This document shows positions 20,575 through 57,853 of a DNA stretch of 64,000 nucleotides, piece by piece. Location: NCBI GenBank assembly GCA_020161245.1, contig JAIUOK010000021.1, forward strand, positions 1 to 64,000, read 5' to 3'. The notes under the pieces were generated by a model. The model was not told where the DNA came from. It worked only from the letters and a program-made list of their open reading frames with translations, and searched no databases. Both the position numbers and the translations under genes were made by a program. This DNA comes from Actinomycetota bacterium. GTDB taxonomy: Bacteria; Actinomycetota; Actinomycetes; S36-B12; CAIYMF01. Each line of letters starts with the position of its first letter. Position 1 is the stretch's first letter.

Positions 20575-20642
20575 CCGCGTGCAACACCAGCATGTGCAGC
20601 GAAGTCCGTCGGTGTTGGTGCACATGCTGGTGTTGCACGCGG
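20575..20642. repeat. 62-bp palindrome family, divergent member
   Basis: Perfect 24-bp arms at 20575-20598 and 20619-20642 (left arm begins CCGCGTGCAACACC) around a 20-base loop. From CGTG (20578) to CACG (20639) it is 62 bp, and 68 bp from CCGCG to CGCGG, the same as the GAGTAAC copies at 9140 and 9576 despite almost no shared arm sequence. It starts three bases after the TetR stop. Confidence 0.85.
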
Positions 20643-27662: not shown

Positions 27663-27724
27663 CGAGTAACTGGCGTTCTCGTCGGTTTCGAGGGCCCGGA
27701 ACCGACGACAACGCCAGTTACTCG
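27663..27724. repeat. 62-bp palindrome family, copy 4
   Basis: Arms 27663-27687 and 27700-27724 pair at 24 of 25 positions; exactly 62 bp from CGAG to CTCG. It lies 13 bases beyond the purD stop, between purD and the promoter side of the sigma-factor gene. Confidence 0.9.
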
Positions 27725-36598: not shown

Positions 36599-36660
36599 CG
36601 AGTAACTGGCGTTGTTATCGGTTTGCAGGCCCCGAAAGCGATGACAACGCCAGTTACTCG
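36599..36660. repeat. 62-bp palindrome family, copy 6
   Basis: Arms 36599-36624 and 36635-36660 pair at 24 of 26 positions around a 10-base loop; exactly 62 bp. The TAA stop of the AbiEi/DUF559 gene (36656-36654) is inside the right arm (GCGAGTAAC read on the minus strand). Confidence 0.92.
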
Positions 36661-50336: not shown

Positions 50337-50351
50337 CACCGAGTCGCGGCG

Positions 50352-50380
50352 AAGGGCCTCTCCGATCCGGAGAGGCCCTT
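50352..50380. terminator. bidirectional hairpin between DUF6159 gene and clpB
   Basis: AAGGGCCTCTCCG (50352-50364) pairs perfectly with 50368-50380 around three bases. It starts 15 bases after the rightward stop and 11 bases beyond the clpB stop, so it can serve both strands; the A and T at the base help on both. Confidence 0.8.
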
Positions 50381-50391
50381 GGTCGGGCGGC

Positions 50392-53179: not shown

Positions 53180-53584
53180 TCAGCGGGAGCGGTCGGCGGG
53201 GCGGGGGCGCCAGACGACCAGGGCGGTGCCGGGCTCGCCGCCCGGACCGGAGGGGCGCGATCCGAGGGTGGGCCGCAGCCGGGCCACCTCGGCGCGCAGC
53301 AGGCCGACCTCCGCGCGGAGGCGGTCGTTGTCGGCTTCGAGGGAGAGGATCCGCTGGATGCCGGCGAGGTTGACACCCTCGCCGGACAGCCGCGAGACCT
53401 CGCGCAGCCGCTCGATGTCGCGCAGCGAGTACAGCCGGTTGCGCCCGCCGGTGCGGTCCGGCGACACCAGGCCGAGCCGGTCGTACTGCCGGAGCGTCTG
53501 CGGGTGCATGCCGGCGATCTGCGCGGCCACCGAGATGACGTACACCGGGGTGGTGTCGTCGGGACGGAGCCTGCTGTCGTCCAT
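53180..53584 (-). CDS. hspR: heat-shock repressor HspR (MerR family)
   Basis: The 134-residue MerR-type protein has [47 protein letters not shown], the winged helix-turn-helix, then a leucine-rich coiled coil ([28 protein letters not shown]). HspR binds inverted HAIR sites and represses dnaK/clpB, with DnaK as corepressor (known of Streptomyces and Mycobacterium). ATG overlaps the dnaJ stop (TGATG), so it is the last gene of dnaK-grpE-dnaJ-hspR. The C-terminal tail is arginine- and proline-rich. Confidence 0.95.
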
Positions 53585-54792
53585 CACGTCGCACCTCCTG
53601 CCGCGTGCTTGCGGGCGCGCTCGAGAAGCTCGCCGCGCGGGTCGTGGTCGGTCGTGGACTCGGCGTAGGCCTTGAGCGCATCGCGCGCCTCGGCCGAGAG
53701 GCGGGCGGGCACCGCGACGTCGATGGTGACGACGAGGTCGCCCTTCGTGCCGTCCTTGCGGCGCACGCCCCGGCCGCGCACGCGCAGCATGCGACCCGAC
53801 TGGGTGCCCTCCGGGATGCGCACCTTGACGGTGCCGCCGCCCGGCGTGGGGACGTCGATATCGCCGCCGAGGACGGCCTCGGTGAAGGTGACCGGGACGG
53901 TGACGGTGAGGTTGTCGCCGTCGCGCCCGAACACCGGGTGCGGCGTGACCGCGACGGTGACGAGCAGGTCGCCGGCCTCGCCGCCGTGCTCGCCCGGCGC
54001 GCCCTTGCCGCGCAGCCGGATCTTGGCGCCGTTGCGGACGCCCGCCGGGATGCGCGCCTGCACCGTGCGGGTCGAGGGCGCGCGGCCGCTGCCCTGGCAG
54101 TTCGCGCACGGGTCGTCGACCACGAGCCCGCGGCCGCGGCAGGCGCGGCACGGCTCGGGGAACGCGAAGCCGCCCGCGTTGCGGTTGACCTGGCCGGCGC
54201 CGTCGCAGCTGGGGCACACCCGCGGAGTGGTGCCGTCCTTGGCACCCGTGCCGCGGCACACCGTGCACGGCGCATCGCTGGTCAGGCGCAGCGGCAGCGT
54301 GACGCCGTCGAGGGCCTCGTCGAAGGACAGCGTCACCGTGCTCTCGATGTCAGCACCGCGACGCGCGCGCTGACGGGAGCCGCCGCCGCGGTTGAACAGG
54401 CCGCCGAGCACGTCGCCGAACCCGCCGCCGCCGTTGCCCGCCGTCGGGCCGCCGCCGGTGTTCATCCGGCCGAGCAGGTCCGAGAGGTCGAAGGGCGCAC
54501 CGCCCCCGCCGGCGTTGGGGTTGAACCCGCCGGGCGGCATCCGGAACCCGCCGCCGCCGAAGAGGCTGCGGGCCTCGTCGTACTCCTTGCGGCGCTGCTC
54601 GTGCGAGAGGACCTCGTAGGCCTCGGAGACCTCCTTGAACTTCTCCTCGGCCTTGGGGTCCTTCTCGGTGGCGTCGGGGTGGTACTTCTTGGCGAGCTTG
54701 CGGAACGACTTCTTGATGTCGTCCTGGCTGGCGTCCTTGGGGACGCCGAGGGTCTTGTAGAAGTCCTTCTCGATCCAGTCCTTCTGGCTCAC
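53584..54792 (-). CDS. dnaJ: chaperone DnaJ (HSP40)
   Basis: The 402-residue co-chaperone has the J-domain ([18 protein letters not shown]... with the HPD motif in [10 protein letters not shown], residues 9-70), a Gly/Phe-rich linker (about 78-140), four zinc-finger repeats ([34 protein letters not shown], about 175-240) and the C-terminal substrate domain. It stimulates DnaK ATP hydrolysis. GTG 54792 has GAGGAGGG upstream. It is separated from grpE by an unusual 386-base hairpin-rich gap. Confidence 0.96.
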
Positions 54793-54921
54793 GGCGTCCC
54801 TCCTCTCTCGGTCGCGCTCGTGCTGGTGATGTTGTGTCCCGTCCTGTCGTACGGCACTGGGTGCTGCTGGCGCTGGTGTGCTTGCGCTGGTCTGCTGGCT
54901 TGCGTCGTGCGTCGGTCGGGT

Positions 54922-54982
54922 TCAGGCAGGGCCCCCGCTGGAAAGGGAGAGCGTTTCTATTTCCATCGGGGGCCCTGCCTGA
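54922..54982. repeat. perfect 16-bp inverted repeat with nested stem
   Basis: Arms 54922-54937 (TCAGGCAGGGCCCCCG) and 54967-54982 pair perfectly around 29 bases. Inside the loop GGAAA (54940-54944) pairs with TTTCC (54960-54964). In a sequence with otherwise few A/T runs this is the strongest single hairpin in the window. Confidence 0.85.
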
Positions 54983-55004
54983 GCCCCTTCCTTGCTTGAG
55001 GGGC

Positions 55005-55030
55005 GGTCTCCACCCTTGAGGGTGGGGACC
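55005..55030. repeat. 11-bp hairpin in grpE-dnaJ gap
   Basis: GGTCTCCACCC (55005-55015) and GGGTGGGGACC (55020-55030) pair at 10 of 11 positions around TTGA. It lies 213 bases before the dnaJ start on the minus strand. Confidence 0.7.
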
Positions 55031-55083
55031 ATGCCCTGCCGTTCGGACCCCGCGAGCGGGGCCCTCCGGCCGGGCGCTTCGCC

Positions 55084-55149
55084 CTCGGCCGTTCCCTTTC
55101 CACCTGAGTGCTTGTTGATCAGGGGTGCGGTGGTCTCGGCCGTTCCCTT
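55084..55149. repeat. 15-bp direct repeat in grpE-dnaJ gap
   Basis: CTCGGCCGTTCCCTT occurs at 55084-55098 and again at 55135-55149, 51 bp apart, exactly identical. Confidence 0.8.
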
Positions 55150-55178
55150 GTCGCTGTGGTGTTGTCGTGGGCTGGCGC

Positions 55179-55769
55179 TTAGCTGGGTTCGGCTACGGCG
55201 ACCATGGCGGCTCGGAGGACTTTGCCGGCGTACTTGTAGCCGGGCTGGAAGACCGCGACGCAGGTGGGGCCGTCGACCTCGTCGGAGTGCGCGTGGCTGA
55301 TGGCCTCGTGCACCGTCGGGTCGAACGGGTCGCCAGGGGCGCCGTACTTCTCCAGGCCCACGCGGGCCACGGTCGCCTCGAGCGACTCGGCGACGGCCTT
55401 GAACGCGCCGTCGAGGTCGCCGTGCTCGCGCGCCCGCCCGATGTCGTCGAGCACCGGCAGGAGCTCGGCGAGGGTGCGGCCCACCGCGTCGTCGCGCACG
55501 ACCTCGCGGTCGCGCTCGACGCGCCGGCGGTAGTTCGCGTACTCGGCGTGGACGCGCTGCAGGTCGGCCGTGAGCTCGCCGACCTTGACGTCCACCTCGG
55601 ACAGACCGGCGTCGACCTCGAGGCCCTCGACGATCTGCTCGAACGCGTCGCCCGCCTGGGGCGCGGCGTCGGGTCCGGGAGCAGCGGGCTGCTCCCGGAC
55701 CTCGCCGGTCTCCGGGTCGATGCGGCGCTTGTCCTGGAAGGAGAAGCCGCCGCCGTCGGGCTCGGTCAC
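55179..55769 (-). CDS. grpE: nucleotide exchange factor GrpE
   Basis: The 196-residue DnaK co-factor has a disordered, proline-rich N-terminal part (1-45), a long helix ([22 protein letters not shown], about 68-90) and the beta-domain with [10 protein letters not shown] and [17 protein letters not shown]. It releases ADP from DnaK. GTG 55769 overlaps the dnaK stop as GTGA, so the pair is translated together. The stop at 55179 is followed by the long structured gap. Confidence 0.96.
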
Positions 55770-57616
55770 TTGTCGTCGCCCTCGTCCACGATCTCCGCGT
55801 CGACGACGTCGTCGTCTGCGGAGGCGCCCGACGACGACCCGCCCGCCGCACCGGCGTCGCCGGCGCCCGCGCTCGACTGAGCGTTGGCGTACATGGCGGC
55901 GCCGAGCGCCTGGCTGGTGGTCGCGACCTTCTCGGCGGCGTCCTTGATCGCGTCGATGTCGTCGCCCTCGAGCGCCTTCTTCAGGTCCGCGAGCGGGCCC
56001 TCGACGTTGCTCTTGGCGTCGGCCGGCACCTTGTCGCCGTTCTCGGCGAGGAACTTCTCGGTCTGGTGCAGCAGCGACTCGGCGCTGTTGCGGACCTCGG
56101 CCTCCTCGCGGCGACGGCGGTCCTCCTCGGCGTGCGCCTCGGCGTCCTTCATCATCCGCTCGATGTCGTCCTTCGGGAGGCCGGAGCCGCCCGTGATCGT
56201 CATCGACTGCTCCTTGCCGGTACCGAGGTCCTTCGCCGCCACGTGCACGATGCCGTTGGCGTCGATGTCGAACGTGACCTCGATCTGCGGCACGCCGCGC
56301 GGGGCCGGCGGCAGACCGGTCAGCTCGAAGGTGCCGAGCTTCTTGTTGTAGGCCGCCATCTCGCGCTCGCCCTGGAAGACCTGGATGAGCACCGAGGGCT
56401 GGTTGTCGTCGGCGGTGGTGAAGATCTCCGAGCGCTTGGTGGGGATGGTGGTGTTGCGCTCGATGAGGCGGGTCATGATGCCGCCCTTGGTCTCGATGCC
56501 GAGCGACAGCGGCGTGACGTCGAGGAGCAGGACGTCCTTCACCTCGCCCTTGAGCACACCGGCCTGCAGGCTCGCGCCGATGGCGACGACCTCGTCGGGG
56601 TTGACGCCCTTGTTGGGCTCCTTGCCGCCGGTGAGCTCCTTGACGACGTCGGTCACGGCGGGCATGCGGGTCGAGCCGCCGACGAGGACGACGTGGTCGA
56701 TGTCGGCCACCGAGATGCCGGCGTCCTTGATAACCGCGGCGAAGGGGGCCTTGGTGCGCTCGAGCAGGTCGGACGTGAGCTTCTCGAACTGCGCGCGCGT
56801 GATGGTCTCGTCGAGGTGGAGCGGGCCCTCGGCCGACGCCGTGATGTAGGGCAGGTTGATCGAGGTCTGCATCGAGCTCGACAGCTCGATCTTGGCCTTC
56901 TCCGCAGCCTCGCGCAGACGCTGCATCGCCATCTTGTCCTTGGTGAGGTCGACGCCGTGCGCGTTCTTGAACTGGGTGGCGAGGTGGTTCATGAGGCGCT
57001 CGTCCCAGTCGTCGCCACCGAGGTGGTTGTCGCCGGACGTGGCCTTGACCTCGACGATGCCGTCGCCGATCTCGAGCAGGGACACGTCGAACGTGCCGCC
57101 GCCGAGGTCGAAGACCAGGATCGTCTGCTCCTTCTCGCCCTTATCGAGGCCGTAGGCGAGCGCGGCCGCGGTGGGCTCGTTGATGATGCGCAGGACGTTG
57201 AGGCCCGCGATCTCGCCGGCCTCCTTGGTGGCCTGGCGCTGGGCGTCGTTGAAGTACGCCGGGACGGTGATGACCGCATCGGCGACGGTGTCGCCGAGGT
57301 AGGCCTCCGCGTCGCGCTTGAGCTTCTGCAGCACGCGCGCGCTGATCTCCTGGGCGGTATAGGCCTTGCCGTCGATGTCGACGTTCCAGGCCGTGCCCAT
57401 GTGGCGCTTCACCGAGCGGATGGTGCGGTCGACGTTGGTGACCGCCTGGCGCTTGGCGACCTCGCCGACGAGCACCTCGCCGTTCTTCGCGAAGGCCACG
57501 ACCGACGGCGTCGTGCGGGCGCCCTCGGCGTTGGGGATGACGGTGGGCTCCCCGCCCTCGAGGACGGAGACCACGGAGTTGGTGGTGCCGAGGTCGATGC
57601 CGACTGCTCGTGCCAT
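55766..57616 (-). CDS. dnaK: chaperone DnaK (HSP70)
   Basis: The 616-residue HSP70 has [22 protein letters not shown] at the start, [33 protein letters not shown] and [19 protein letters not shown] in the ATPase domain, [14 protein letters not shown] at the linker-to-substrate domain junction, and a C-terminal Gly/Ala-rich tail ending [12 protein letters not shown]. Length is usual for Actinobacteria. It is the first gene of the heat-shock operon; promoter and HAIR operator are visible upstream. Confidence 0.98.
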
Positions 57617-57832: not shown

Positions 57833-57853
57833 GTTGCGTCGGATCGACTCAAG
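57833..57853 (-). promoter_or_regulatory. HAIR-like HspR operator upstream of dnaK
   Basis: GTTGCGT-CGGATCG-ACTCAAG fits the HAIR consensus CTTGAGT-N7-ACTCAAG: one half-site is perfect and the other matches 5 of 7, with the correct 7-base spacer. It lies 17 bases upstream of the -35 box. Expected to be bound by HspR. Confidence 0.7.

Follow-up and report, generated by a model that had tools for sequence, protein, structure and literature searches.

The question raised by this locus is why a dnaK operon in which neighboring genes overlap should hold 386 nt between grpE and dnaJ, and what that interval might do. The window, i.e., the whole 64,000-nt stretch analyzed, comes from an actinobacterial genome (G000; 4.29 Mb in 95 contigs); the closest relatives with a name are for the most part MAGs of Candidatus Nanopelagicales. 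Its minus strand carries dnaK, grpE, dnaJ, hspR and clpB in that order, and the RNA therefore corresponds to the reverse complement of the forward-strand letters (Table 1); the identity of ClpB is supported by Pfam. A preliminary description of this DNA had claimed short overlaps for dnaK/grpE and dnaJ/hspR and a 386-nt gap between the two pairs, all of which the gene coordinates confirm: dnaK and grpE overlap by 4 nt, and the dnaJ stop codon (TGA, 53586-53584) overlaps the hspR start (GTG at 53587 or ATG at 53584). The putative HspR operator upstream of dnaK agrees at 12 of 14 positions with the HAIR consensus, CTTGAGT-N7-ACTCAAG. Directly after clpB lies a tight hairpin (AAGGGCCTCTCC-GGATC-GGAGAGGCCCTT, 50351-50381), which is the likely end of the clpB transcript.

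Table 1. Coordinates of the dnaK operon genes and of the features of the grpE-dnaJ gap in the window.
Feature	Position	Strand	Details
HAIR-like HspR operator, putative	57833..57853	-	upstream of dnaK; CTTGAGT-N7-ACGCAAC
dnaK	55766..57616	-	Pfam PF00012 (HSP70)
grpE	55179..55769	-	Pfam PF01025; stop at 55179
grpE-dnaJ intercistronic gap	54793..55178	-	386 nt; hairpin-rich, U-poor
15-bp direct repeat, copy 1, AAGGGAACGGCCGAG	55135..55149	-	
Small stem CCCCTGATCAACAAGCACTCAGGTGG	55100..55125	-	pair probability 0.92
15-bp direct repeat, copy 2, AAGGGAACGGCCGAG	55084..55098	-	
Small stem GGGCCCCGCTCGCGGGGTCC	55045..55064	-	pair probability 0.99
Small stem GGTCCCCACCCTCAAGGGTGGAGACC	55005..55030	-	pair probability 1.0
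Small stem GCCCCTCAAGCAAGGAAGGGGC	54983..55004	-	minimum-energy fold
Large hairpin	54918..54986	-	27-nt arms, 93% complementary; 15-nt loop UAGAAACGCUCUCCC
Conserved apical core GGAAATAGAAACGCTCTCCCTTTCC	54940..54964	-	sole GGAAATN(4-14)YTTTCC match in G000
dnaJ	53584..54792	-	Pfam PF00226, PF01556; GTG start at 54792
hspR	53180..53587	-	MerR-like repressor by sequence; named by sequence and gene order

The RNA strand is very poor in U within the gap, with 24 T versus 99 A in 386 nt, and the other long gaps of the genus contain 7-10% T. It also folds well, with a z-score of -5.05 and none of 100 shuffles as good. The perfect hairpin with 16-bp arms previously described here (54922-54937 pairing with 54967-54982) turned out to be part of a larger one, whose arms at 54918-54944 and 54960-54986 include a 1x1 A.G mismatch and an inner UGGAAA/UUUCCA stem, with a predicted pair probability of about 0.99. 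At least three smaller stems had been reported as well, and four are found in the minimum-energy fold (pair probability 0.83-1.0); the 15-bp direct repeat is likewise present. No Rfam family reaches the gathering score in the window, and relaxed thresholds yield nothing of significance, the sub-threshold matches being to miRNA-precursor models only, which any long hairpin would explain. Beyond short G+C-rich matches, we found no DNA like the gap elsewhere in G000 and no credible homologous alignment in 99 relatives. On the coding strand of the gap, neither an internal sigma-70 promoter nor a U-tailed terminator was found. Two CTTGAG half sites on the plus strand between 54990 and 55025 were considered as an HspR operator within the gap and rejected by eye, being direct and not inverted repeats.

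The supposition that such a gap is unusual for this operon holds up against about 100 other Actinomycetes loci, in which the grpE-dnaJ gap is mostly 0-130 nt and, outside the genus, at most 173 nt. Within the genus, long gaps are present in the window (386 nt), G002 (360 nt), G007 (404 nt) and G001 (308 nt as assembled, with a run of N included), and six species have short gaps of 112, 98, 40, 78, 108 and 80 nt; the contig of G009 begins 25 nt before dnaJ and does not span the gap. On a tree of GrpE and DnaJ, weakly supported near its root, the long gaps fall into two clades, one comprising the window and G001, the other G002 and G007 beside their short-gap sisters G003 and G010. To be scattered in this way, the element must have been lost repeatedly, gained repeatedly or passed between lineages by exchange. 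The preliminary description had named short gaps in close relatives as an observation that would speak against a role for the gap; six relatives indeed have them, but three others carry long gaps with a homologous hairpin.

Each of the four long-gap species has a hairpin, 68-78 nt in length, at a distance of roughly 40-120 nt upstream of dnaJ; its position and sense orientation are kept, and its folding z-scores range from -4.0 to -7.9. The common plan consists of a long G+C outer stem, an internal loop mostly of G and A, an inner stem of 5-6 bp and a loop of 8-16 nt. The inner stem reads GGAAA/UUUCC in three species and GGACA/UGUCC in G001, where C-G has replaced A-U in a compensatory change. 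Between species the outer arms share no evident sequence, yet they are paired in each. No such core occurs in the gaps of the six short-gap species (40-112 nt).

For the pattern GGAAAT-N4-14-YTTTCC, G000 and G002 have a single match each and G007 has two, all of them inside the gap; further matches, in the short-gap species G004, G008 and G009, are unrelated. A wider pattern, GGAMAN(8,16)TKTCC, is too loose to be informative. A covariance model of three sequences recovers the site in the species on which it was trained (the window, G002 and G007) at E-values of about 1e-8 to 1e-9 per genome; G001, kept out of the model, scored 20 bits at the right place, and no match was found in the other genomes searched. 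The hairpins of the window and G001 have the start of the loop in common, and the pattern GGAMATAGAAACGCYCT, with no mismatch allowed, has one match in G000 and one in G001, both at the gap hairpin, and no other among 99 genomes. Given these gap-only matches together with the covariance-model and loop-pattern results, the hairpin core is very likely homologous among the long-gap species. Furthermore, in an alignment of three sequences only, chosen with structure in mind, 97.7% of cells pair and both sides have changed in 5 of 15 pairs, which none of 500 shuffles reaches and at which slid controls fail.

The genome is rich in long perfect hairpins, with 95 perfect stems of at least 12 bp in a 451-kb sample of G000 (the window plus 387 kb). 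The longest of these for the most part either have a tight loop and lack a U-tail or come from dispersed families of palindromes, and the dnaK-gap hairpin departs from them by its wide structured loop and its single copy. Among the palindromes, a dispersed 62-bp repeat (CGAGTAACTGGCGTT...AACGCCAGTTACTCG), in which the outer arms are fixed and the middle varies, occupies 17 places in G000; each of the two window copies (27663-27724 and 36599-36660) lies where a long minus-strand ORF has its 3' end, and L194 has a resembling form, CGAGTTACACCTCG. Another repeated palindrome with a short central loop, CGCTCTGGATGSGTSAGCGACG, has three copies in the 451-kb sample (L141:5742-5795, L150:1470-1521, L151:17039-17090), and a third type, starting CCGCGTGTAACAGCCC or CCGCGTGCAACACCAGC, is located at L160:14024-14091, L159:10205-10270 and window 20575-20642.

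The preliminary description had offered an RNA processing site, an attenuator, a temperature-sensing structure or the scar of an inserted element, among which an RNA processing or termination site appears to be the best reading. Specifically, we put a probability of roughly one half (0.52) on the gap being an intercistronic RNA boundary that separates dnaK-grpE from dnaJ-hspR mRNA and lowers or uncouples dnaJ expression. The hairpins, the outlying gap length and the return of a homologous hairpin at the same position in four species are observed; every RNA-level step is one that we infer from them. Between grpE and dnaJ, the stable hairpin cluster, in which one long hairpin dominates and no U-tract follows, might cause RNA polymerase to terminate in part. 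Alternatively, a double-strand RNase, e.g., RNase III, might cut the long stem, or the stem might shield the 3' end of the dnaK-grpE part of the mRNA. Each route would leave dnaK-grpE mRNA in excess of dnaJ-hspR mRNA. In the dnaK operon of Streptomyces coelicolor, transcript levels are reported to be lower for the promoter-distal genes (PMC2687793).

The fold z-score of the gap, the pair probability of its large stem, the retention of the hairpin in four species with outer arms that change together and the confinement of the core to the gap in G000, G002 and G007 all argue for such a boundary, as do unrelated terminator-like hairpins at the same gap in other Actinomycetes: Williamsia (perfect stems of 12-14 bp), L036 (11 bp), L042, L184 (a strong hairpin) and L105. 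These suggest that a structured boundary arises there repeatedly. L105 is the locus of G003, a sister of a long-gap species, and the hairpin in its 112-nt gap, perfect over 12 bp (GCCGGGCCCCGC...GCGGGGCCCGGC), is not the conserved one. In all four species the conserved hairpin offers a helix of the length associated with RNase III (about two turns, at least 22 bp), made up of an outer part of ~14-20 bp and an inner part of 5-6 bp with a small internal loop between them. As a classical terminator it fits poorly: instead of a G+C-rich stem closed by a short loop, the 16-bp G+C-rich outer stem encloses 29 nt (the inner stem plus the 15-nt loop), the 3' flank AACCCGACCGACG contains no U-run, and no terminator match was obtained on the minus strand. 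In favor of a boundary, hairpins of G000 generally lack U-tails, and hairpin clusters without U-trails have been reported as terminators (PMC8355165). Counting against the boundary are the six members of the genus for which 40-112 nt suffice and in which the core is absent, the wide structured loop, which sets the large hairpin apart from the tight-loop terminator-like hairpins of G000, the missing U-run, and additional copies in G007 that run opposite to the direction of transcription.

Those copies bring in the main rival explanation, which we consider unlikely, albeit far from negligible: that the hairpin is a palindromic DNA element of little function, lodged in the gap and duplicating locally, with arms that stay complementary through replication template switching and not through selection on RNA. 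In G007 the core is present four times on a single 12.7-kb contig, in both orientations: two copies lie in the gap (one inverted), and the other two lie ~0.8 kb beyond clpB, where they are flanked by an aminotransferase gene and an unnamed ORF and are antisense to both; partial copies of the arms are present too. This is how a locally duplicating palindrome behaves. The arms differ wholly between species while the core stays, gap length spans ten-fold within the genus, and assemblies break or carry Ns at the gap in G009 and G001. Replication template switching is described as creating and maintaining RNA hairpins (PMC8794818); by that account, arms can arise and persist without selection on RNA, so that covariation alone is no proof of RNA function. 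However, the core is single-copy in the window's genome, as opposed to the many genomic copies of REP or MITE repeats, and also in G002, the orientation of the dnaJ-proximal copy does not vary among the four species, and no gene for a mobilizing enzyme was seen beside the hairpin. The earlier idea of an inserted-element scar is partly plausible, insofar as only some species of the genus have the long gap and G007 has four copies; in the window's genome the copy is single.

A dedicated regulatory RNA that controls dnaJ/hspR expression and has a protein or an RNA as the partner of its conserved tip seems improbable. The apical core is kept while the arms turn over, and the G+A-rich internal loop occurs in all four species, as such a reading would predict; nevertheless, the loop varies in length (8-16 nt) and sequence, pairs with the dnaJ Shine-Dalgarno no better than shuffled loops do, and is absent in close relatives. 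There is likewise a slim chance that a structured RNA element of the dnaK operon, restricted to the genus, with a fixed apical core and G+A-rich internal loop recognized by a factor and with exchangeable arms, sets the dose of DnaJ/HspR relative to DnaK/GrpE. As to an RNA thermometer or a heat-responsive attenuator for dnaJ, the place of the hairpin a short way upstream of dnaJ, within a heat-shock operon, invites the thought, but the folding predictions make it very improbable. The large stem keeps a pair probability of 0.99 from 20 to 70 C with no melting or switch, and the unpaired fraction of the dnaJ Shine-Dalgarno region rises only gradually, from 0.38 to 0.57, over that range. Alternative pairings amount to 10 nt in the window gap and 15 nt in G007 and are not common to both, so that no conserved alternative structure speaks for attenuation. 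Neither suggestion of the preliminary description gains support.

Overall, the gap is real and unusual in length, its conserved hairpin core matches no Rfam family, and its function is what we infer from structure and comparison. HspR acts with DnaK in a feedback loop, and an RNA boundary between dnaK-grpE and dnaJ-hspR, if true, would for this reason tune the gain of that loop. Additionally, the locus provides a natural species series (gaps of 40 to 404 nt) for following the gain of an intercistronic hairpin, the retention of its core and the exchange of its arms, and the same series could show whether covariation reflects RNA selection or template switching.

REP/BIME-type and MITE-like palindromic repeats are known kinds of DNA repeat. 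The gap hairpin resembles them as palindromic DNA with local duplicates in G007, and differs in that it is not dispersed in G000 and its arms are not conserved. Intercistronic stem-loops that are cut by RNase III or protect 3' ends occur in operon mRNAs. Here the likeness is a helix of >20 bp between cistrons with an interior loop, whereas the gap hairpin has a conserved core and is restricted to part of one genus. With the U-less terminators and hairpin clusters reported previously (PMC8355165), the gap shares stable G+C-rich hairpins after a stop codon and the lack of a U-tract. In contrast to those clusters, it lies inside an operon and not at its end, its main hairpin has a wide structured loop and a conserved core, and that hairpin begins ~192 nt past the grpE stop, with the smaller stems nearer, compared with the 80 nt typical in that study.
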